10,993 bases of DNA from Clostridia bacterium (GTDB lineage: Bacteria > Bacillota > Clostridia > Saccharofermentanales > UBA5734), in NCBI GenBank assembly GCA_009929975.1, contig RZZF01000031.1, positions 1 to 10,993 on the forward strand, in the 5' to 3' direction. The stretch's first letter is position 1. Each line of letters starts with the position of its first letter. The position numbers and the translations under genes are program-made. The notes beneath the pieces were generated by a model. That model was given only the letters and a program-made list of their open reading frames with translations, made no database searches and was not told the origin of the DNA. Below are positions 1 through 10,373 of this stretch, one piece after another.

Positions 1-830
1 ATCAATTCCCGGGCTCTTTGCAGATCCCGGTGCATGGCTTGGATCAATTCATCCGTATTGGCAAACATCTTTTCCTCCCGCAGATATTTGATCAGTTCCA
101 CCTGCATTCCTTCGCCATAGAGATCGCCTGCAAAATCGATCAGGAAAGTTTCGATCTCAATGATTCCTGTGTGTTTCACCGTGGGAGATTTGCCGATATT
201 CGTCAAGCCAAAAAAGCCCTTATGGCCCAAATGTACTTTGCTGAGGTAGATACCCTCTTTGGGAATTAATTGATGTGGATTGCTCAGCATCAGATTTGCC
301 GTGGGAAATCCAAACTCCCGCCCCCGCGCGATGCCCCGGCTTACAGAGCCCAAAAGCCGATAGGGGCGTCCCAAAAGCTGATTTGCCTGGGCTAGTTCAC
401 CGCTTTCCAGCAATTCTTTGGCTTTGCGGTACAACGGATTCGTCCGCTGGTTGAACATCAGGGCGAAATAGCGGTCAGACTGATCCGCCGCTTTGATCAT
501 GGCTTCAGCCTGCCGGGTTGTGACCGCGACCGGTTTCTCACATAAGACATGCAGATTGTTTTCCAGGGCCGCGATCGTCAGCGGTGCGTGGCTGTAGTGA
601 GGGACCGCCACCAGAACCGCGTCAATTTCAGCGTTTTCGATCAGTTCGCCGCCCGTCTCATAGACGGTGACGTCAGCGGGCAGTTGATCAGCCGCCCAGC
701 GTCTGCGGGCCGGGTCAAGATCTGCGATCGCGGCCAGTTTCATGCCGTCTATCTCGTTATTCGCGATCATTTTCGCGTGAGCTGAGCCCATATTGCCGAT
801 TCCGATAATTCCGATTCTGACCTGTTCCAT
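1..830 (-). CDS. Chimeric frame: Gfo/Idh/MocA oxidoreductase N-terminus joined to RibF riboflavin kinase domain (partial at window edge)
   Basis: The frame is open from an ATG at 830 (good GGAG site about 8 bases upstream) to the window edge, 276 codons without a stop. Residues 1-138 are the Rossmann NAD(P)-binding domain of Gfo/Idh/MocA dehydrogenases: a GIGNMG dinucleotide loop at 10-15 and the family CEKP motif at 97-100. From about residue 147 the protein is instead the riboflavin kinase half of bifunctional RibF (flavokinase/FAD synthetase): LLGRPY, REFGFPTANL (FPT at 175-177), TNIGKSPT (211-217) and a catalytic-type ExE followed by IDFAGDLYGE (231-240). The substrate domain of the oxidoreductase and the FAD synthetase half of RibF are both absent. 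The isomerase genes upstream fit an oxidoreductase, so that half looks native to this locus. Leucine codons change from mostly CTG (8 of 11) to mixed TTG/CTG (6 each of 17) across the join. Each domain call is firm; whether the fused protein exists is uncertain. Confidence 0.85.
   Translation of the reverse strand, partial: MEQVRIGIIGIGNMGSAHAKMIANNEIDGMKLAAIADLDPARRRWAADQLPADVTVYETGGELIENAEIDAVLVAVPHYSHAPLTIAALENNLHVLCEKPVAVTTRQAEAMIKAADQSDRYFALMFNQRTNPLYRKAKELLESGELAQANQLLGRPYRLLGSVSRGIARGREFGFPTANLMLSNPHQLIPKEGIYLSKVHLGHKGFFGLTNIGKSPTVKHTGIIEIETFLIDFAGDLYGEGMQVELIKYLREEKMFANTDELIQAMHRDLQRAREL
393..419 (-). other. Fusion junction between the oxidoreductase and RibF parts
   Basis: These nine codons read KELLESGEL. 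The block suits both parents: Gfo/Idh proteins commonly have RKAKELxxSGELG after the dinucleotide domain, and RibF proteins commonly have an IRxLLxxGxL helix before LLGRPY. The frame is uninterrupted across it. A crossover or assembly join inside such shared sequence would explain a seamless in-frame fusion. The exact breakpoint cannot be fixed without the two parent sequences. Confidence 0.65.
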
Positions 831-852: not shown

Positions 853-1611
853 TCAGTGGTAGCCCAGTCCGGCCAGATTGCGATAGCTTTCAGCCAGGCA
901 GTCGATCGGTTCTCCGTCGCAGGTATCCTGTTCAACCATCAGCCACTCGGTCCCTGCCACGGAACAGGCGTCCAGAATGGCCTTGAAGTTCATATTGCCG
1001 GACAAGACCGGTGTCATGATCTGGTCATGCCCCCGCATCGCCATATCCTTGAGATGAATCACCGAAACCCGTCCGGCCAGCTGCCGGATCATCAGCGCCG
1101 GGTCTGCCCCGCCGGCCTGCAGCCAGTAGGTATCCAGAATGAAACCGAGAAGTTCAGGCGGCATGCCGTCAATCAGGCGCTGCATCAGTGTTTGTCCATC
1201 AAAAATCGCGAACTCGAAATTATGATTGTGATAGTGCAGCTGCATACCGGCTGCGGCGATTTTCTCGGCTGCCGGCCGGTAATCACTGAGAAACCGGTCA
1301 ATTCCGTCAGGATTTCTTTCATAGTGGCCCGGCATGGAGCCAATTCCGATATGGCGTGCTCCGTAAATCCGGTGATCCTCTATCACCTGCTCTGTATCAT
1401 TGAGAATGCGGTCCTGTGCCGTATGCGTCACGACAATCCCGAGATTCAGGCGATCGCAGATCTGACGGACACGGGTCGGCGCGACAGGGCCGATTCCGGA
1501 CACCTGAACCGTCGTATAGCCGATATCAGCGACTTGCGCGAGTGTCGCCTCCAGGTCTGATTCTGTCTGACACTGTTCCCTTACCGTGTAAAGCTGTGCT
1601 CCAATGATCAT
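853..1611 (-). CDS. Sugar phosphate isomerase/epimerase (xylose-isomerase-like TIM barrel), B
   Basis: This 252-residue protein has the size and motifs of the AP-endonuclease-2/xylose-isomerase-like TIM barrel family, metal-dependent enzymes that isomerise or epimerise sugars and sugar acids. Candidate metal and substrate residues are in the HYHNHNFEF segment (126-134, with E133), D160 in ILDTYW, H186 in VIHLKDM and E227 in MVEQD. The LDTYWLQAGG segment is typical of members that sit beside Gfo/Idh/MocA oxidoreductases. The ATG overlaps the stop of the preceding gene in an ATGA, so translation is probably coupled. The oxidoreductase frame begins 22 bases after its stop. There is no signal peptide, so it should act in the cytoplasm. 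The substrate cannot be told from sequence; inositol-type and keto-sugar pathways are possible. Confidence 0.88.
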   Translation of the reverse strand: MIIGAQLYTVREQCQTESDLEATLAQVADIGYTTVQVSGIGPVAPTRVRQICDRLNLGIVVTHTAQDRILNDTEQVIEDHRIYGARHIGIGSMPGHYERNPDGIDRFLSDYRPAAEKIAAAGMQLHYHNHNFEFAIFDGQTLMQRLIDGMPPELLGFILDTYWLQAGGADPALMIRQLAGRVSVIHLKDMAMRGHDQIMTPVLSGNMNFKAILDACSVAGTEWLMVEQDTCDGEPIDCLAESYRNLAGLGYH

Positions 1612-2489
1612 GATGTTGCCTCCGCTTCAATTGTTTCTGACAGGGTCCGGCACGCATTGACTGCGGTGAGAAAAGCTGTCAAGCCATCAGGATAGGTATA
1701 GTCACCGTCATCTTCACGCGTCTGGCTGCTGTCTTTCTCCAGCTGGTCGCGTCCGGAAAAATGGGTCAGATGAGGTTCAACCGACAAAAAGCGATCGCCC
1801 GGTTTATTCCGCATGACCCGCATGAGCGCCGCCAGAGAACCATCACCGGCTCCTGCCGGGACAATCCGCTGGTCTGAACGCCGGACATCCTTGACATGCA
1901 GATAATCAATCCAGGGCTCCAGAGACTGCATGGCCTGCCAGGGATCCGCATCAACCAGAAGGTAATTAGCCGGATCCAGTATGCCGCGCAGACGGGTCCC
2001 GAAAGTCCGATGCAGGTCAAGACAGCGGTCCGGGATATCACCGTAGATATCCCGCTCGTTTTCATGCAGCAGGACACAGCCCTCCGATTCAGCCAGCTCA
2101 AGCAGCCGGCCAAGCTGATCAATCACCTTGCCGCGGTAATCGGCCGGATCTTTACCCTGGGGTATGAAAAAACTGAACACGCGTATCCGGTCGGTCTCCA
2201 GTTGATGAGCGGTCTGGCATAACCGTTTCATCACGTCAAGATGGGGCCCGATCGGATCAAGAACGCTGATCTTGCCAATCGGTGATCCAAGGCAAGAGAC
2301 TTCAATTCGTGCTGCCTCCAGCGTCTGATGGACCTGCTGAGCCATGGCATGATCAAAATCCGCGACACTGATTCCGTCAACCATCCGCAGCTCAACATGA
2401 CTCAGGCCAGCCGTCCGCAATGCCTGTACCTGCTCTTTCAATCCGATCGCGGCTTCATCCGCGAAGCCTGTTAATACCAGTCGTCCCAT
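1608..2489 (-). CDS. Sugar phosphate isomerase/epimerase (TIM barrel), A
   Basis: A 293-residue protein of the same TIM-barrel superfamily as its downstream neighbour but clearly divergent from it. Metal-site candidates are the HENE segment (142-145), D172 in ILDPAN, H198 in YLHVKD and E238 in SVEPH. The ILDPAN and LHVKD motifs are standard for the sugar isomerase/epimerase family. I chose ATG at 2489: it follows GGAGGTGA with an 8-base spacer. The longer alternative begins with the GTG that forms part of that ribosome binding site and would add four residues. It lies 28 bases after apt and overlaps the next gene by four bases (ATGA). Two tandem isomerases followed by a Gfo/Idh-type domain suggest a small sugar or polyol catabolic pathway; the substrate is unknown. 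Confidence 0.87.
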   Translation of the reverse strand: MGRLVLTGFADEAAIGLKEQVQALRTAGLSHVELRMVDGISVADFDHAMAQQVHQTLEAARIEVSCLGSPIGKISVLDPIGPHLDVMKRLCQTAHQLETDRIRVFSFFIPQGKDPADYRGKVIDQLGRLLELAESEGCVLLHENERDIYGDIPDRCLDLHRTFGTRLRGILDPANYLLVDADPWQAMQSLEPWIDYLHVKDVRRSDQRIVPAGAGDGSLAALMRVMRNKPGDRFLSVEPHLTHFSGRDQLEKDSSQTREDDGDYTYPDGLTAFLTAVNACRTLSETIEAEATS

Positions 2490-2517
2490 ACTTGCAGTCA
2501 CCTCCGCTGCCTATTGC

Positions 2518-3048
2518 TCAATCGGGTATATTCTCTCTGACGGACACCAGAGAATAGACGGGGTAGCCGTTCAGTCTCGACCGTCCGCCGAGATCCTCAA
2601 TTTCGATAAAGAAAAGAACGCCGGCCACAATTCCACCGAGCTGCTCAATCAGCTGGCAGGTGGCTCTTGCCGTTCCACCCGTCGCCAGCAGGTCATCAAC
2701 CACCAGCACGCGCGTTCCCGGGGTAAAGGCATCAACATGCATTTCAAGGATGTCTTTGCCGTACTCCAGTTCGTACTCGGCACTGACCGTCTGCCATGGC
2801 AGCTTACCTTTTTTCCGTACCGGGATGAAGCCGCGCTTCATCGCATACGCCAGCGGCGCACCGAGAATAAAGCCACGCGACTCAGAACCGACAATCTGGG
2901 AAAAAGGAACATCCCTGACTTTGTCAGCCATCTGATCGACAGTCGCCTGAAACGCGTCCGCATTCTGCAGAACGGTGGTGATGTCGATGAAGTCAATACC
3001 CTGTTTGGGAAAATTGGGGATATGACGTAAAACTTTCGCTAAATCCAT
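2518..3048 (-). CDS. apt: Adenine phosphoribosyltransferase
   Basis: A 176-residue enzyme that converts adenine and PRPP to AMP plus pyrophosphate in cytoplasmic purine salvage. The length is typical for bacterial Apt. Visible motifs are FPKQGIDFIDIT near the N-terminus (13-24), GSESRGF (54-60), the flexible-loop segment RKKGKLPW (78-85) with YELEYGKD (92-99), and the PRPP-binding signature VLVVDDLLATGGTA (114-127). The ATG at 3048 follows GGAGGC with a 6-base spacer. It is the first gene of an apparent operon with two sugar isomerases and the oxidoreductase frame, an unusual partnership that may only reflect shared transcription. It has its own TATAAT promoter embedded in the terminator of the upstream gene. 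Confidence 0.96.
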   Translation of the reverse strand: MDLAKVLRHIPNFPKQGIDFIDITTVLQNADAFQATVDQMADKVRDVPFSQIVGSESRGFILGAPLAYAMKRGFIPVRKKGKLPWQTVSAEYELEYGKDILEMHVDAFTPGTRVLVVDDLLATGGTARATCQLIEQLGGIVAGVLFFIEIEDLGGRSRLNGYPVYSLVSVRENIPD

Positions 3049-3062
3049 TGAAATGCCTCCAT

Positions 3063-3094
3063 AAAAAATGATCAGGCAAAACCCTGCCTGACCA
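3063..3094 (-). terminator. Intrinsic terminator after the SGNH hydrolase gene
   Basis: In minus-strand RNA, positions 3094-3085 and 3078-3069 pair as a 10-base stem (core UCAGGCA/UGCCUGA with one G-U pair) around a 6-base loop, followed at once by six U residues (3068-3063). It stops RNA from the SGNH hydrolase gene just before the apt ribosome binding site. Confidence 0.75.
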
Positions 3095-3123
3095 TTATAG
3101 CGCTTTTCGATGAAGATCGTCGA
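3069..3123 (-). promoter_or_regulatory. apt promoter overlapping the upstream terminator
   Basis: On the minus strand a perfect TATAAT (3094-3099) is preceded, 18 bases upstream, by TCGACG (3118-3123), a 4/6 match to the -35 consensus. The predicted start is a G near 3087, inside the 5' arm of the terminator hairpin at 3069-3094. RNA starting there would lack most of that arm, so it should not form the terminator. Confidence 0.6.
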
Positions 3124-3148
3124 CGGATCTGCAGTTTATTTACCAGTC

Positions 3149-3163
3149 GCCTGACAATCAGGC
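3149..3163 (-). repeat. Small hairpin at the stop codon of the SGNH hydrolase gene
   Basis: GCCTGA and TCAGGC flank a 3-base loop, and the arm contains the TGA stop of the hydrolase gene. No T-run follows, so it is not a terminator by itself. Its arm (3158-3165) can also pair over 8 bases with the 5' arm of the downstream terminator (3084-3091). Confidence 0.5.
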
Positions 3164-3853
3164 AGCGTTTACTCTGATAAAATCTGCCATGACATCGCTC
3201 ATCAGCGCATGTCCTTTCGCATTGGGATGGATACCGTCACTGCAGATCAGTTCCGGCATGCGTCGTGAGGCCAGAAAAGCTTCACGTATGGGAATGTAAA
3301 GGCTGCCGGTCTCCACCGCCAACCCGGTGATCGCCAGCGAATAGGCTTCGTGATGGCGATAGATCGCCTGAACATCACCAAGAAAGGTCATCAGCCCCTG
3401 ACGATCAATCCCTCTTGCAACCAGAAAATTAAAATAGCGCTCTCCATCCAGCGGCGGCAGTGACATGAGCACCGGAGCCGCCCCCGCTTCTTTTACTTTT
3501 CCGGTCATCTCTTTCAATGTGCTGATAAAGCGGGCCAAAGGAGTCAGCGGCTGATGGTCGTCATGCGGCGCGGCAGCCACGGCCTCCCAGTCAAAATCAC
3601 AGTCATTCCCGCCGTATTCAAGCAGAACAGCATCACAGAACAATCCGTCCTTCAATGACTTTTCCAGCTGGATCAGGCCACGGTCAATGGTCCAGCCGAA
3701 GCGGGATTTATTGAGAACCTGAAGCCCCTGCGGCTCAACCATCCGGTCAGCACAGCTGCCGGTGAGACGCCGATAAGTTCCCCGGACTTCGTCAAGAATG
3801 ACACCCCGCATGATCGAGTCGCCCAGAATTGTCAGTTTCTTCCCAAGATTCAT
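3158..3853 (-). CDS. SGNH/GDSL-family hydrolase
   Basis: A 231-residue single-domain serine esterase or acyl-hydrolase of the SGNH/GDSL fold. Block I is LTILGDSIMRG with nucleophile S13. The block II glycine is probably G53 (SRFGWTI). Block III is YGGND with N83. Block V is SDGIHPNAKGH with D206 and H209 completing the triad. There is no signal peptide or membrane segment, so the protein is expected in the cytoplasm, where relatives often deacylate or deacetylate small molecules or glycans. ATG at 3853 follows an AAAGGGGA purine stretch. The gene stands alone between a terminator and its own promoter region, which carries two operator-like sequences. The substrate cannot be predicted. Confidence 0.9.
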   Translation of the reverse strand: MNLGKKLTILGDSIMRGVILDEVRGTYRRLTGSCADRMVEPQGLQVLNKSRFGWTIDRGLIQLEKSLKDGLFCDAVLLEYGGNDCDFDWEAVAAAPHDDHQPLTPLARFISTLKEMTGKVKEAGAAPVLMSLPPLDGERYFNFLVARGIDRQGLMTFLGDVQAIYRHHEAYSLAITGLAVETGSLYIPIREAFLASRRMPELICSDGIHPNAKGHALMSDVMADFIRVNAA

Positions 3854-3869
3854 CGTTATATCCCCTTTG

Positions 3870-3888
3870 TGTAAAGATTATCATTATC
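3870..3888 (-). promoter_or_regulatory. Fur-box-like sequence in the SGNH hydrolase leader
   Basis: The minus strand reads GATAATGATAATC followed by TTTACA. Against the classic 19-base Fur box (GATAATGATAATCATTATC) this is 16 of 19 matches, perfect over the first 13 and weak in the last hexamer. It sits between the predicted transcription start and the ATG. It could serve a Fur-family regulator, but the weak half makes chance AT-rich similarity possible. Confidence 0.35.
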
Positions 3889-3895
3889 GTTTCAC

Positions 3896-3912
3896 ATAGT
3901 ATTTAATACTAT
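3896..3912. promoter_or_regulatory. Perfect palindrome at the predicted transcription start (candidate operator)
   Basis: ATAGTAT-TTA-ATACTAT is a perfect inverted repeat with 7-base arms and a 3-base centre. It covers the predicted start of the SGNH hydrolase transcript, the usual place for a repressor to bind. The binding protein is not identifiable. Confidence 0.5.
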
Positions 3913-3917
3913 ATATT

Positions 3918-3945
3918 ATTGTATCTTATTCCAACAGAAGTGCAA
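3918..3945 (-). promoter_or_regulatory. Promoter of the SGNH hydrolase gene
   Basis: On the minus strand TTGCAC (3940-3945) and TACAAT (3918-3923) are separated by 16 bases. The match is 4/6 for the -35 box and 5/6 for the -10 box. The predicted start is near 3911, giving a leader of about 58 bases. Confidence 0.6.
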
Positions 3946-3992
3946 GGGGTTCTGATAAAAAAGTGATTGATCCCGCACAGAACATTTTCCGC

Positions 3993-4037
3993 CGGACTGG
4001 CGCAGGGCAGTCCGTCCGGTTGGCCGTCCGGGCGGCC
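3993..4037. repeat. Pair of GC-rich stem-loops between divergent genes
   Basis: CGGACTG (3993-3999) and CAGTCCG (4008-4014) form a 7-base stem with an 8-base loop. GGCCG (4022-4026) and CGGCC (4033-4037) form a second stem with a 6-base loop. Neither is followed by a T-run. Both are much richer in GC than the AT-rich promoter DNA on the left. They resemble a REP-like or structural element; function is unknown. Confidence 0.45.
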
Positions 4038-4057
4038 GGAATGCCATTTATACACTA

Positions 4058-4086
4058 TTGACCCGAACGATTGTCAACGTTAAACT
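4058..4086 (+). promoter_or_regulatory. Promoter of the HPr-like gene
   Basis: TTGACC (4058-4063, 5/6) and TAAACT (4081-4086, 4/6) are spaced 17 bases apart. The -35 box forms part of an inverted repeat, TTGAC (4058-4062) with GTCAA (4073-4077), a possible operator. A leader of about 44 bases follows, holding a near-repeat (ATCAGGC at 4102 and 4117) and a small CCTGA/TCAGG hairpin (4109-4122) just before the ribosome binding site. Confidence 0.55.
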
Positions 4087-4136
4087 GTTCAGTGTATTTC
4101 TATCAGGCCCTGAGTCATCAGGCTGAGGAGGATATC

Positions 4137-4364
4137 ATGAGTTTCGAACATGTCAATATCGCTGAGCTGGCAACAGCCATACGATCATGTAAAGGGCGGG
4201 TCTGCCTGCTGACCGCTGAGGGCGATTGCCTGAACGCGAACAGTATTCTCAGTGCGATCGTCGGTCTTTCCAGAATCGTTGAGCTGGCGGACCGGCAGCC
4301 GATCCGCATCTCATGTGAGAATCCTGAGGATCAGGCGATCATCGATCGTTGTCTCAGCCAGTAG
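4137..4364 (+). CDS. HPr-like protein lacking the phosphorylatable histidine
   Basis: A 75-residue protein starting at ATG 4137, five bases after AGGAGG. Residues 20-60 follow the pattern of the PTS phosphocarrier HPr: strand RVCLLTAEGDCLNANSIL, helix IVGLSRIVE, strand PIRISCENPEDQ, then a C-terminal helix. The NANSIL segment matches the NAKSIMG region of HPr, and Ser36 takes the place of regulatory Ser46. The GIHARP histidine motif and the first strand that carries it are missing, and the only histidine is H5. It therefore cannot act as a usual PTS phosphocarrier. By analogy with Crh of Bacillus, which keeps Ser46 but lacks His15, it could have a regulatory role; this is inference. An upstream in-frame TTG (4071) would add 22 residues unlike HPr and would lie in the promoter, so I reject it. 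A shared terminator follows. Confidence 0.7.
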   Translation: MSFEHVNIAELATAIRSCKGRVCLLTAEGDCLNANSILSAIVGLSRIVELADRQPIRISCENPEDQAIIDRCLSQ

Positions 4365-4401
4365 CCGCATGACTCAGCTGACAGCGTACTGACGGGCGTG
4401 C

Positions 4402-4461: not shown

Positions 4462-6522
4462 TCAGACGACTTTCAGAACCACAATCCCATAAGGATCAAG
4501 TGTCACCGTTCCGGTCAGATGCTGCTGCGAAAGAAGATCCATACCGGCCAGTTCACTCAGATGAACAGATCGGCTTTCGCCGTGATAATTCTGAATGAAC
4601 AGGTAGTCAGCCTCTCCGTCTGTTCTGCTGCTCACGGTCACACCGTCCGGCAGATCTGCCAGCACCCGGTCCAGACCGCGGCGTGACCCGAGCCAGCTGT
4701 AAAAGTCATTGAGAAATGCCGGCTCTGTACGGGCGGCGACATAATACACCTCACCGTCACCCACATGGTTCACGGTCAGTGCCGGTCTTCCCTTGTAGAA
4801 ATCATTTCCATAAACAGCCAGAACTTCCGCTGTTTCAGCATGAATCAAGTCACAAACAGTATCAATCCGGTAGCTGCCGCGCAGATCGGCGAGACTCGCT
4901 GCCGTTATGGCCAGTGTGTTATGCTCATCCGCATACAGCGAGTCGGTCTCTTCCGCCCAGACCCCGGTCAGACCACGCAGCGGTCCGGGGAATCCACCAA
5001 GAAAACAAAGATCAGACTCGTCAACCAGCCCGCTGAAATACGTCACCACCAGGGTGCCTCCGCGCCGGACAAACTGTTCCAGCCGTTCAGCCGTACCGGG
5101 GCGGATCATATACAGCATCGGCGCGATGATCAGATCATAGCCGTCAATCTCACTGTCCATGTCAATCAGATCGACCGGAATCCCCTGGCGCCAGAACGCC
5201 TGGTGATGCTGCATGCAGGTTTCCACATACTGGCGCCGGTCACGGGTCAGGCCCTGCATATGCTCAATCGCCCAGCGGTTTTCCCAGTCAAAGAAAATCG
5301 CAGTTCTGGCCGGGACTGATGTGTTGCAGACATCGCTCAGCGCGGCAAGGTCTCTGCCGACCTGGCTGACCTCTTTGAAGACCCGTGTCTGCTCATGTCC
5401 GGCATGATCAACCACGGCTCCGTGGAACTTTTCGGATGAGCCGCGGCTTTTCCGCCACTGGAAATACTGAACAGTATCTGAGCCATGGGCTATCGCCTGA
5501 AGCGCGGCAAGTCGGTGCATGCCTGGTTTTATCAGTTTGCAGACCGGCTGCCAGTTGACCTGGCTGGGTGTGCTTTCCATCAGCATGAACGGGCGCCCCT
5601 GCTTGAGTGAACGGAAAAGATCATGGTTGAAAGCCGTCGCGGCGGCAATATCCGCCGGATTTTCAGCGTCACGATGCCAGGTCGGATAACTGTCCCAGCT
5701 GATGATATCAACATCACGGGCCAGTTTAAAATAATCGAGCCCGCCATAGGTTTCCATGAAATTCGCGGTCAGCGGTACATGGGGAGTCAGGCGGCGCAGC
5801 GGCTCCGTCTCTGCCGCCATGAAATCGCGCGTCTGGTGGGTCGTAAAACGCATCCAGTCCAGATACAGGCCATGGACACTGTTTTCACCATGAGGTGCCG
5901 GTGATTCGATCTGGGACCAGTCTGTATAGGTGTGGCTCCAGAAACGGGACCACCAGGCTTGATTCAGTTTTTCCAGATCATGATCATAACGCTCACGAAG
6001 GTAGTCGCGGAATGCTTCCTGGCACAGATCGCAATGGCATTCACCGCCATATTCATTTGAGACATGCCAGAGCAGCAGGCCCGGATGATCCGCGTAGCGC
6101 TCTGCCAGTTTCTCATTGATACGGACGGCGAAACGGCGATAGACCGGCGATGTGAGGCAGTGGTTATGGCGTCCGCTGTGCAGAATCCGCTTACGGTCGC
6201 CGCCGGTACGCAGTACTTCCGGATATTTCTGTGACATCCAGGCGGGACGGGCTGCCGTCGGTGTCGCCAGAATGGTATAGACACCATGGCTCCAAAGACG
6301 GTCGATTGTCTGGTCAAGCCAGTCAAAATCAAACCGGCCTTCTTCCGGCTCCAGTGCCGCCCAGGCAAAAATTCCGACCGACATCACATTGCATCCGGCC
6401 AGCTGCATCAGACGAACATCTTCATCCAGAATCGCGGGGTCATGCAGCCACTGATCAGGATTATAGTCGGCACCGTGCAGCAATTTCGTAAACTTCGGAC
6501 TGATCGGTTCAAAGCGGGTCAT
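4462..6522 (-). CDS. GH42 beta-galactosidase
   Basis: A 686-residue glycoside hydrolase family 42 enzyme that releases terminal beta-galactose from lactose or short galactosides. The N-terminal TIM barrel begins with LLHGADYNPDQW (14-25). The acid/base is E157 in WHVSNEYGGECHC and the nucleophile is E316 in FMLMESTPSQVNW. Cysteines 122, 162, 164 and 167 match the zinc site known in GH42 members. A trimerisation domain of class I glutamine-amidotransferase-like fold follows (about 385-600, with DLIIAPMLYM and RRGGTLVVTYFSG), then a small C-terminal beta domain ending in DPYGIVVLKV. Length is normal for the family. There is no signal peptide, so it is intracellular and needs imported sugar. ATG at 6522 follows GGGAGG with a 7-base spacer. 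It is monocistronic, with its own promoter and terminator. Confidence 0.95.
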   Translation of the reverse strand: MTRFEPISPKFTKLLHGADYNPDQWLHDPAILDEDVRLMQLAGCNVMSVGIFAWAALEPEEGRFDFDWLDQTIDRLWSHGVYTILATPTAARPAWMSQKYPEVLRTGGDRKRILHSGRHNHCLTSPVYRRFAVRINEKLAERYADHPGLLLWHVSNEYGGECHCDLCQEAFRDYLRERYDHDLEKLNQAWWSRFWSHTYTDWSQIESPAPHGENSVHGLYLDWMRFTTHQTRDFMAAETEPLRRLTPHVPLTANFMETYGGLDYFKLARDVDIISWDSYPTWHRDAENPADIAAATAFNHDLFRSLKQGRPFMLMESTPSQVNWQPVCKLIKPGMHRLAALQAIAHGSDTVQYFQWRKSRGSSEKFHGAVVDHAGHEQTRVFKEVSQVGRDLAALSDVCNTSVPARTAIFFDWENRWAIEHMQGLTRDRRQYVETCMQHHQAFWRQGIPVDLIDMDSEIDGYDLIIAPMLYMIRPGTAERLEQFVRRGGTLVVTYFSGLVDESDLCFLGGFPGPLRGLTGVWAEETDSLYADEHNTLAITAASLADLRGSYRIDTVCDLIHAETAEVLAVYGNDFYKGRPALTVNHVGDGEVYYVAARTEPAFLNDFYSWLGSRRGLDRVLADLPDGVTVSSRTDGEADYLFIQNYHGESRSVHLSELAGMDLLSQQHLTGTVTLDPYGIVVLKVV

Positions 6523-6550
6523 GTCAATACCTCCCTTTCCGTCTTCACTA

Positions 6551-6565
6551 TCAGTATAGAACTGA
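6551..6565. promoter_or_regulatory. Palindrome covering the -10 box (candidate operator)
   Basis: TCAGT-ATAGA-ACTGA is an inverted repeat with 5-base arms that contains the -10 box of the beta-galactosidase promoter. A repressor bound here would block the promoter. The arms are short, so chance is possible. Confidence 0.35.
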
Positions 6566-6581
6566 ATAAAGCTCCCGGCAA
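6553..6581 (-). promoter_or_regulatory. Promoter of the beta-galactosidase gene
   Basis: On the minus strand TTGCCG (6576-6581, 4/6) and TATACT (6553-6558, 5/6) are 17 bases apart. The -35 box lies in the loop of the terminator of the upstream gene. The predicted start is near 6546, just beyond that terminator. Confidence 0.55.
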
Positions 6582-6591
6582 TGAGAGCTTT
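6568..6591 (-). terminator. Probable terminator of the O-acetylhomoserine sulfhydrylase gene
   Basis: AAAGCTC (6568-6574) and GAGCTTT (6585-6591) form a 7-base stem with a 10-base loop. On the minus strand the U-tract is short and interrupted (UUUAUU); on the plus strand there are five T residues, but no plus-strand gene ends here. It lies about 40 bases after the minus-strand stop codon. Confidence 0.55.
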
Positions 6592-6630
6592 TTCAGGTCA
6601 ATATCATTATTTTAATGTAATGCAGGTTGA

Positions 6631-7911
6631 TCAGTTAAGTGTTTCCAGCGCTTGTTTCAGATCCGCGAGAATGTCATCGATATGTTCAATTCCAACAGAC
6701 AGCCGGATCATTTCCGGCCCGATCCCGGCGGCTTTGAGCTGTTCATCGCTCAGCTGGCGATGGGTGGTTCCCGCAGGGTGGAGAACACAGGTCCGGGTAT
6801 CGGCCACATGTGTGACAATCGCAGCGAGCCGCATCGCTTCCATCAGGCGGATGGCGGCTTCCCTGCCGTCCCTGACACCGAAGGAGATGACACCGCAGGT
6901 ACCATTCGGCATATATTTTTTTGCCAGTTCATATCCACGGTTGCCGGGCAGACCGGGGTATTCCACCCAGCTGATCCGGGGATCCTTCTCGAGGAATTCG
7001 GCCACAGCCTGCGCGTTGGCACAGTGGCGTTCCATTCTCAGAAACAAAGTCTCAATCCCCATATGGAGCAAAAACGCGTTCATCGGTGAGATGATCGCTC
7101 CTATGTCCCGCATCAAATGGGTTCTTGCCTTGGCGATATAGGCAGCAGGGCCGAACTGATCGACATAGACAATGCCATGATACGTTTCATCCGGTTCGGT
7201 CAGGCCGGGAAAATTTCCGCTGCGCCAGTCGAACCGTCCGCTGTCGATGATCACGCCGCCCATGCTGCGGGCATGTCCGTCAAGATATTTGGTCGTCGAA
7301 TGCGTGATGATATCCGCGCCGAACTCAAAAGGCCGGCAGTTGACCGGGGTCGGGAACGTATTATCGACAATCAACGGAATGTGATGAGCATGCGCGACCC
7401 GGGCGAACTTCTCAATGTCCAGTACGACCAGCGTCGGATTGGACAGCGTTTCTGCGAAAACCAGTTTGGTATCGGCCTGAATTGCCGCTTTCAGAGTCGC
7501 CTCATCACAATCTGCCTCAACAAAAGTAAAATCGATACCCATGTCACGCAATGTCTTGTTGAACAAATTATAGGTACCGCCATAGATTGATGATGTGCTG
7601 ACCACATGATCGCCGGACCGGCAGAGATTGAGCACCGCCAGCATTGAGGCAGCCTGGCCGGACGATGTCAGCACAGCGCCGATACCGCCCTCCAGCTCAG
7701 CCAGTTTCGCTTCCGCTGCCGCAAATGTCGGATTACCCAGACGGGTATAGAAATCTCCGCTGGCCTCGAGATCAAAAAGCTGGCCCATCTGCCCGGCTGA
7801 GTCGTACTTGAACGTTGTGCTCTGGCAGATCGCCGGTACACGTGGTTCACCATTTTCCGGCCGGTAGCCGCCCTGGACACATTTGGTGTTGATGTGATAA
7901 TCACTGTTCAC
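6631..7911 (-). CDS. metY: O-acetylhomoserine sulfhydrylase (PLP-dependent Cys/Met metabolism family)
   Basis: A 426-residue PLP enzyme that makes homocysteine (or a related thiol product) from O-acetylhomoserine and sulfide for methionine synthesis. Length fits O-acetylhomoserine sulfhydrylases, which are longer than cystathionine synthases. Visible features are YTRLGNPT (55-62, phosphate-binding Tyr/Arg of the neighbouring subunit), SSGQAA (83-88), Y110 in SIYGGTYNLF, the PLP aspartate D183 in VDNTF, and the Schiff-base lysine K208 in STTKYLDGH. The stretch after the lysine reads HARSMGG, not the more common HGTSIGG, and marks a subfamily variant. The start is GTG at 7911: AGGAGG sits seven bases upstream and the next in-frame Met is near residue 43. 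That ribosome binding site overlaps the stop of the LTA-synthase-family gene, so the two are probably cotranscribed. No S-box or T-box leader can fit between them. Confidence 0.93.
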   Translation of the reverse strand: MNSDYHINTKCVQGGYRPENGEPRVPAICQSTTFKYDSAGQMGQLFDLEASGDFYTRLGNPTFAAAEAKLAELEGGIGAVLTSSGQAASMLAVLNLCRSGDHVVSTSSIYGGTYNLFNKTLRDMGIDFTFVEADCDEATLKAAIQADTKLVFAETLSNPTLVVLDIEKFARVAHAHHIPLIVDNTFPTPVNCRPFEFGADIITHSTTKYLDGHARSMGGVIIDSGRFDWRSGNFPGLTEPDETYHGIVYVDQFGPAAYIAKARTHLMRDIGAIISPMNAFLLHMGIETLFLRMERHCANAQAVAEFLEKDPRISWVEYPGLPGNRGYELAKKYMPNGTCGVISFGVRDGREAAIRLMEAMRLAAIVTHVADTRTCVLHPAGTTHRQLSDEQLKAAGIGPEMIRLSVGIEHIDDILADLKQALETLN

Positions 7912-7922
7912 AAGAAATCCTC

Positions 7923-10373
7923 CTATGGTTCAATTGGTTTGACAATGTTGTCATACTGATACGCCCAGTATCGATCAAGCTGACGAACGATCGACTGCGG
8001 GATGCTCTCTCGGTCATAAACACGTCCGTTGCGCATCGTCACGGTGGTCGTACTGACCGCTTCGATGGTCTCGCTTAATGAATTGATATAGTCAAAATAG
8101 GGTGACCGTTCGACGCCCGCGGCACTCAGCATCATCTGGCTGAGAAAATTAGGGCTCAGGCGGCTGGCATCGGTCTCAATCTCCGGAAGTTCATAGTTGG
8201 CCCAGATCAGATAGGGTGTTTCATACAATTTCATCGTTTCCTCAATATTGAGATCCGACATCGGTTTGCCGAAATGAGCTTCGTAGAACGGCTCAAACAG
8301 TTTATTCCTGCCTGGCAGATGGTCACCGAAGAAGACCAGCATGGTCGGTTCATCCAATGCCTCAAGCTGCTCAATCAGATATTTCAAGGCGTCGTCAGAG
8401 TGGCGCAGCATGCTCAGGTACAGTTCAACTGACTCCGCGTCAGCATAGTCTGGCAAGGTGATATGATATTCCAGTTGTTCAAAGTTCTCGTCCGTTCCAT
8501 AGTAGGGAAAATGATTCTGCATGGTAACGGAAAAGATAAACAGGCGTTCTTCTTTCGTTTTGGACTGCAGTTGATCAACGATCATCTCATAATCAGCCTG
8601 ATCACTGATGAAGTTGATCATTGTCGCGTCCTCGGGAAAACTTTCCATGCTGATGAATTCATCAAAACCCATCGCCGGATAGACCACCTGCCGGTTCCAG
8701 AACGATCTCAGATAGGGGTGGATCGCGACGCTGCGATAGCCCTGCTGGCTGAGCAGGTCCGGGACACTGTGCACCGGTTTGCGGAAATAGGACATGTAGG
8801 GAATGCTGGAATCATGAAAGAAAATCATCGATCCGCCGGTCAAAAACTCAAATTCCGTATTGCAGGTGCCTCCGCCGAAGACCGGCGAAAGCATATAGCC
8901 GTCAATCGTCTGGTCTGAATTACGCAGCTGGTTGAAATAGGGCATCTCGGATTCACTGGCCTTGAGATCCTTGATATGGCCAAGATCCGAGAATGACTCG
9001 CTCATGATAACGATAATATTGGGCTGGTCTGGATCCGGTTCCGATTTCTGCTGTGGTGCCAGATAGAAATCTTCAGGGATCGGTTCTTTTGCGACCGGCG
9101 CTTTGATGAAAAGGTCGCGAATGCTGCCGACAAACGGAACAACAAATCCGTTCTGCCCGTAATTCATCATCTGATTCCAGGGATATTTCGCGACATTGAA
9201 CCGCGTGATCATCAGCGTGTCATTAAGAACAATCTGGCTGGCCAGCAGGAAAACGAGCAGAAGCACCGAGGCCGAGGCGGCAGCGCGGGATACAACCGTC
9301 TTGAAGAGGCCGCGGCTGCGGGCATAGGTCAGCAGAATCGCCAGAACCGCGACGAGCAGCATCGCGATCAGAAAACGGACACTCGGCTTGAACTGGAGCT
9401 GGGCAAGCCCGGTTGCCATCAGCATGGGCAGTGAAACAATGTCGCCGGCGAACAAAGGATCGCCGCGGAAAAACTGCTTGCTGTGATTGCCATAAGCCAG
9501 GCCGATCACGATGAAACTGCCGATATAAAGCGCGATCCGGTCATTGCGGATCATCGCGGCCAGCAGCATCTGCAGCAGGAGGATGAACAGAAAACTGAGA
9601 ATGACCAGGGTGAAGGGCAACTGCGCGTCCTTGTTCAGCGCGTTGAGCATCTCAACGATCACAACCAGAATTAATGACGTCAGCAGAACCGGAATGAACG
9701 GCAGCCGGTCAAACACCCGCTTGAGAAAACGCAGGGGGACGAAAAGCAGAAAGATGATCAGCGCCAGCAGCACAGACGCGATGATCATCCCGACCGTATC
9801 AAAACGGGTATAAGCAGTCAGAAGACCCAGGGACAATCCGCGGTTCATTCCGTTGAACTGCATCCGGTCCTCAACAGCGAAGACGGTATGAATCGACAGA
9901 AGATCCTGATCGGAAAGCTGATCGACCGTCAGGCGAAGCATGAGGGTTTGTCCGGGATACGTCCCTTTGACATCCATCGGGATCAGTGTACTGCTGTAAG
10001 GATTGATATCATGTCCGGTCAAATTGGTTTCATAGAGCGGGGTCAGGCTGCCGGCATCAAAAAAAGTCAGTGTCAGCAGCAGCTGGTCCGGCTGCTTGAG
10101 AGTAACCGGAGGATCAAACGATAACGACAGGTCTGACAGCCCTTCCGTGGTCACGTTGAACGGCTGGTCGATGACATCGCCCTGGGTCAGTTTCAAGGGG
10201 AGATAATCGCCGATTCCCATCGGTTCATCCCATTCCTCAACAAAGAAAGACGACCAGGCACGAATGATCACCGCGATGAGGAATATCAGAATAACGAGCC
10301 GGGCGGCCCAAAGACACCGCTTTGGTGTCAGGACGCGTTTTAGTGTGGTGATAATGGTCGAAGCTCGATTCAT
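7923..10373 (-). CDS. LTA-synthase-family membrane sulfatase-fold enzyme
   Basis: An 816-residue polytopic membrane protein with an outside sulfatase-fold catalytic domain, as in lipoteichoic acid synthase and related phosphoglycerol transferases. One helix (about 22-40) is followed by a beta-rich extracytoplasmic segment (about 45-190), then six more helices (about 193-213, 225-246, 252-275, 278-296, 333-350, 365-384). Positive loops agree with the N-terminus inside and the catalytic domain outside. Catalytic residues match LtaS: metal ligand E459 in IVIMSESF, nucleophile T503 in GGGTCNTEFEF, H621 in MQNHFPY, and D684/H685 in FFGDHLPG. It is larger than typical LtaS because of the segment after helix 1. 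ATG at 10373 follows GGAG with a 7-base spacer. The likely role is transfer of glycerol-phosphate or a similar group to an envelope polymer; the acceptor is unknown. Confidence 0.9.
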   Translation of the reverse strand: MNRASTIITTLKRVLTPKRCLWAARLVILIFLIAVIIRAWSSFFVEEWDEPMGIGDYLPLKLTQGDVIDQPFNVTTEGLSDLSLSFDPPVTLKQPDQLLLTLTFFDAGSLTPLYETNLTGHDINPYSSTLIPMDVKGTYPGQTLMLRLTVDQLSDQDLLSIHTVFAVEDRMQFNGMNRGLSLGLLTAYTRFDTVGMIIASVLLALIIFLLFVPLRFLKRVFDRLPFIPVLLTSLILVVIVEMLNALNKDAQLPFTLVILSFLFILLLQMLLAAMIRNDRIALYIGSFIVIGLAYGNHSKQFFRGDPLFAGDIVSLPMLMATGLAQLQFKPSVRFLIAMLLVAVLAILLTYARSRGLFKTVVSRAAASASVLLLVFLLASQIVLNDTLMITRFNVAKYPWNQMMNYGQNGFVVPFVGSIRDLFIKAPVAKEPIPEDFYLAPQQKSEPDPDQPNIIVIMSESFSDLGHIKDLKASESEMPYFNQLRNSDQTIDGYMLSPVFGGGTCNTEFEFLTGGSMIFFHDSSIPYMSYFRKPVHSVPDLLSQQGYRSVAIHPYLRSFWNRQVVYPAMGFDEFISMESFPEDATMINFISDQADYEMIVDQLQSKTKEERLFIFSVTMQNHFPYYGTDENFEQLEYHITLPDYADAESVELYLSMLRHSDDALKYLIEQLEALDEPTMLVFFGDHLPGRNKLFEPFYEAHFGKPMSDLNIEETMKLYETPYLIWANYELPEIETDASRLSPNFLSQMMLSAAGVERSPYFDYINSLSETIEAVSTTTVTMRNGRVYDRESIPQSIVRQLDRYWAYQYDNIVKPIEP

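Follow-up and report, generated by a model that had tools for sequence, protein, structure and literature searches.

The open reading frame at the left end of the window, which joins the N-terminal part of a Gfo/Idh/MocA dehydrogenase to the 3′-terminal part of a ribF gene, is very probably (at about 97%) a metagenome assembly error at a contig end and not a real gene. The window, i.e. the whole 10,993-base stretch of DNA analysed, is the entire contig C172 of a draft genome (G000; 2.18 Mb in 479 contigs; completeness 86%, contamination 1.8%). The chimeric frame lies on the minus strand and extends from an ATG at window position 830 to base 3 (276 codons), leaving the contig at its left end without a stop codon; upstream of the ATG it stays open as far as a TTG at 935. 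The junction between the two parts lies about 400 bases from the end of the contig.

An initial annotation of this DNA had described an in-frame dehydrogenase/RibF chimera in which each parent lacks its other half, an architecture for which it knew of no natural example. The frame is indeed present as a single open frame (window 3–830, minus strand). A Pfam scan assigned its residues 4–122 to GFO_IDH_MocA (PF01408; 4e-25) and its residues 153–275 to Flavokinase (PF01687; 5.5e-37, positions 1–122 of the 124 of the profile), and at E ≤ 0.001 detected neither a Gfo C-terminal domain nor the FAD synthetase domain (PF06574). The frame therefore contains the dinucleotide-binding Rossmann domain of a Gfo/Idh/MocA dehydrogenase but lacks the C-terminal alpha/beta substrate domain, and contains the flavokinase domain of RibF but lacks the N-terminal FAD synthetase domain. 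When about 5.8 billion proteins were searched with the chimeric frame, 5292 matched; of the 120 matches listed, both Pfam domains occurred solely in the protein of the window itself, a single-member cluster (P0001). Likewise, among the matches listed in 38 related genomes, none covered most of both halves. A functional bifunctional enzyme, namely a dehydrogenase provided with its own flavin kinase, might be imagined because both retained domains score well. That idea is nevertheless wholly improbable, since each domain is without its partner, no counterpart appeared among those matches in related genomes, and all 20 NCBIfam models listed stayed below their cut-offs (the best RibF model scored 133.4 bits, the cut-off being 295).

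The two parts of the frame could be assigned to two distinct parents, both known as intact, ordinary proteins on other contigs. Residues 1–138 were identical at all 138 positions to P0002, a Gfo/Idh/MocA protein of 386 aa, while residues 140–276 matched P0003, a RibF of 298 aa, at 136 of 137 positions; the ribF part ends with the contig, six residues short of the end of P0003. Relative to these two proteins, the switch occurs within residues 139–147 (window 416–390). Of the block proposed for it by the initial annotation, KELLESGEL, the segment LLESGEL (residues 140–146; window 393–413, minus strand; codons TTG CTG GAA AGC GGT GAA CTA) is common to the chimeric frame, P0002 and P0003; E139 agrees with neither relative. 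This mismatch counts against an assembly chimera, as does the conservation of the reading frame across the junction, for which the odds by chance are about one in three. The parents having been compared as proteins, the LLESGEL codons are probably the word at which a false overlap was made. In some Gfo matches, weak local alignment extends to residues 157–188 of the frame. Those reaching residue 188 were rejected as longer matches, given that only nine of the 27 residues at 139–165 agree with P0002 and that seven of these nine are the LLESGEL block.

The relatives of the two halves also differ. Among the 120 proteins listed, they formed two unmixed sets, one of Gfo/Idh/MocA proteins, most with about 385 residues, the other of RibF proteins, most with about 300. 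All the listed RibF matches bearing an organism name came from Cloacimonadota (or Cloacimonetes, or Cloacimonadaceae). When the RibF half was compared with reference genomes, the eight best of 59 loci were all from Cloacimonadota (61–77% identity); nothing was nearer than 77%, and no locus outside Cloacimonadota exceeded 49%. The nearest genome relatives of the Gfo half were in the same genus (G002, 64%; G001, 61%; over about 148 residues), and its listed matches with organism names were from Oscillospiraceae, Hungatella, Butyrivibrio and Clostridiales, which we take to be Bacillota. A comparison of the taxa of the two halves, suggested earlier as a check, thus places their named relatives in different groups, Cloacimonadota versus Bacillota-type names. 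The change in leucine codon choice noted across the junction does run in the direction claimed (CTG in 8 of 11 cases in residues 1–138; CTG and TTG each in 7 of 20 in residues 140–276), and the GC content falls from 0.564 to 0.496 between the same segments, but with so few codons and bases neither codon use nor GC was counted as evidence.

Judging from PF01408, the identity to P0002 and the neighbouring genes shared with G001, the dehydrogenase part (residues 1–139; window 414–830, minus strand) is genuine to contig C172. Window 3–392 (minus strand) appears to be foreign, the 3′ portion of a ribF of Cloacimonadota type, as suggested by PF01687, the identity to P0003 and the origin of the eight best loci. 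The earlier statement that, in the case of mis-assembly, everything left of about 393–419 belongs elsewhere agrees with the assignment of residues 140–276 to P0003, and this segment should almost certainly be treated as foreign. The ordinary form of Gfo/Idh/MocA oxidoreductase, of 384–386 aa, is represented by P0002 and the proteins encoded in G001:C260 and G002:C197; the chimeric frame leaves this family after residue 146.

The C-terminus that, in the case of mis-assembly, the initial annotation considered missing was found on another contig of the same draft genome. A search with P0002 located its residues 172–386 at the left end of contig C230 with 99% identity; from a WAGEGG block onward, C230 was identical to P0002 at 212 of 212 residues, and this part carries PF22725 and PF02894. 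Residues 147–174 of P0002 (28 codons) are absent from both C172 and C230. Consistent with this gap, no direct overlap was seen when words of 12, 15 and 20 bases were compared between the chimeric frame and the first 200 bases of C230. With C230 frames 3214–4389 and 6273–7589 set aside, five genes beyond the C-terminus matched, in order, the five that follow the intact 384-aa gene in G002:C197. They encode a second Gfo protein (46%), a 424-aa protein (48%), a 206-aa protein (46%), and two proteins that are presumably alcohol-dehydrogenase-like (72%) and phosphorylase-like (74%). The phosphorylase-like gene of C230 (6273–8653) is present as two overlapping frames, 6273–7589 and 7451–8653; the corresponding place in G002:C197 is occupied by a single open frame, at least 708 residues long.

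On the window side, the gene just upstream of the dehydrogenase (853–1611, minus strand) shares 68% identity over 250 aa with its positional counterpart in G001:C260, and a second gene of the same run (1608–2501, minus strand) shares 61% over 284 aa with its match there. We assume these to be a sugar-phosphate isomerase/epimerase-like gene and a second isomerase-like gene, respectively. The comparison extended as far as the gene at 3158–3853, which is 49% identical to its counterpart; the gene at 2518–3048 had no counterpart in the G001:C260 gene set compared. The run beside the dehydrogenase (window 853–3853) is therefore partly kept in G001:C260, and the gene at 853–1611 marks the body of C172 as native. 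Since gene order is kept on both sides, C172 and C230 are the two sides of one locus.

The draft genome has a ribF gene of its own. One piece, containing the FAD synthetase domain and positions 1–68 of the flavokinase profile, lies at the right end of contig C53; a second, covering positions 71–123 of the flavokinase profile, lies near the right end of contig C20, on the opposite strand. The arrangement of the genes upstream of ribF on C53 (presumably DHH-type and TruB-type) and downstream on C20 is that of G030:C5. On C20 these are two frames, of 465 and 461 residues; Peptidase_M16_C was detected in the first, and the second we take to be M16-like. With just 36% identity to P0003, the C53 piece is distinct from the fragment present in the window. 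The proposed check for ribF elsewhere in the genome thus found a native gene, split over C53 and C20.

The left end of C230 carries a foreign extension as well. At positions 1–78, the first 20 residues of the frame are not Gfo and are joined to the dehydrogenase at WAGEGG. A 26-residue query (these 20 residues plus the WAGEGG block) gave 142 matches to phage records with an E cut-off of 10, the strongest being from the Myxococcus phages Mx9 and Mx8 (69%, 2e-5); others were annotated as RecA-like, AAA-ATPase or helicase. Two translated phage relatives read WMGKGG and WSGVGG at the place of WAGEGG, conserving only W, G, G and G, a point against the assembly reading; the true phage-type parent of this end was not found and would be expected to read WAGEGG. 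Two foreign extensions thus flank one gap inside one dehydrogenase gene, and each join falls where the foreign protein resembles the dehydrogenase, or probably does, across six or seven residues. Such a configuration is not predicted by a single natural recombination event, but would be expected if an assembler, at a gap with low coverage, passed through short words that the genomes have in common.

These observations bear on the possibility of a recent illegitimate recombination in a cell, in which the dehydrogenase gene was fused in frame, at a short sequence common to both, with the terminal 3′ segment of a ribF of Cloacimonadota type. The open frame across the junction, and the uncertainty of structures near contig ends in a draft genome, would be compatible with such an event. 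However, the dehydrogenase C-terminus lies in its expected neighbourhood on C230 with an unrelated foreign extension of its own, so a real event would have had to fall in the very gene in which two contigs also happen to break off; in addition, both halves are undiverged from intact proteins found elsewhere, and the 120 matches listed include no second copy of the fusion. We consider recombination very unlikely. The same low chance is given to the junction existing in living cells, which would imply a cross-phylum, microhomology-driven fusion caught so early that neither half had diverged. Of the two options left by the initial annotation, mis-assembly at a short shared sequence is the one favoured by the C-terminus on C230, the separate native ribF and the different groups to which the relatives of the halves belong; the real chimeric gene suggested by its title is not supported.

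Under mis-assembly, the dehydrogenase gene of the source organism would not stop at residue 146 but carry on into what is now the left end of C230. Contig C172 may have been extended through the LLESGEL codons, a word of about 20 bases that by chance also occurs in the ribF of a co-occurring bacterium of Cloacimonadota type; judging from the proteins, this word would be identical at the base level in both parents. The assembler would then have run on through about 390 bases of the foreign ribF. In a similar manner, the outward extension of C230 would have passed at WAGEGG into a gene for a phage-type ATPase, again through an exact shared word, low coverage at the gap probably having favoured both joins. 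Short-read metagenome assemblers are known to yield contigs of this kind. In a published benchmark, inter-genome chimeric contigs amounted to 22.15 per genome with megahit and 2.63 with SPAdes, and short-read assemblies contained more of them at lower coverage (PMC11261854). As in those contigs, C172 would combine two genomes in a fragmented draft; it differs from them in that its join keeps an open frame and so resembles a fusion protein.

A different, natural fusion involves RibF in many genomes of the same order, where its sequence continues into a C-terminal M16 peptidase-like domain. A flavokinase match was present in 142 of 148 genomes of the order and, by frame counts made by eye, lay inside an open frame of 608–875 residues in 30 of the 142. 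By family, these were 16 genomes of f1, 12 of f4, two of f3 (genus g25) and none of f2; every f4 genome in the table has the long frame. The other three f1 genomes with a flavokinase match are the draft genome (split), G002 (476 residues, cut by a contig end) and G004 (477 residues). Seven of the 30 long frames were scanned with Pfam (G005, G025, G028, G030, G041, G057 and G091), and all seven combined FAD synthetase, flavokinase and Peptidase_M16_C in one frame; G025 and G028 are single-contig genomes. The fusion is located on the stretches L126 (2307–4547), L144, L145, L146, L148, L149 and L150. In L147 (G023) the longest frame is not RibF, and the G002 frame contains the two RibF domains followed by the contig end, with no M16_C match in the part present. 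In the draft genome itself, C20 (L053; 2722–4221, minus strand) carries the end of the flavokinase domain and M16_C within a single frame, which suggests, as far as its pieces show, that this genome also carries the RibF–M16 fusion. A narrow literature search found no report of a RibF/M16 peptidase fusion. A study of gene fusions in metabolic pathways treats the kinase and adenylyltransferase halves of RibF, and M16 and peptidase do not occur in its main text (PMC4921024).

For the join in C172, the findings call for caution, since gene calling and domain annotation can both accept an in-frame join near the end of a contig, which can then mimic a new two-domain architecture and a cross-phylum transfer. 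The two foreign ends at one gap also indicate how such joins may be recognized, namely by seeking the missing half of the gene at another contig end.
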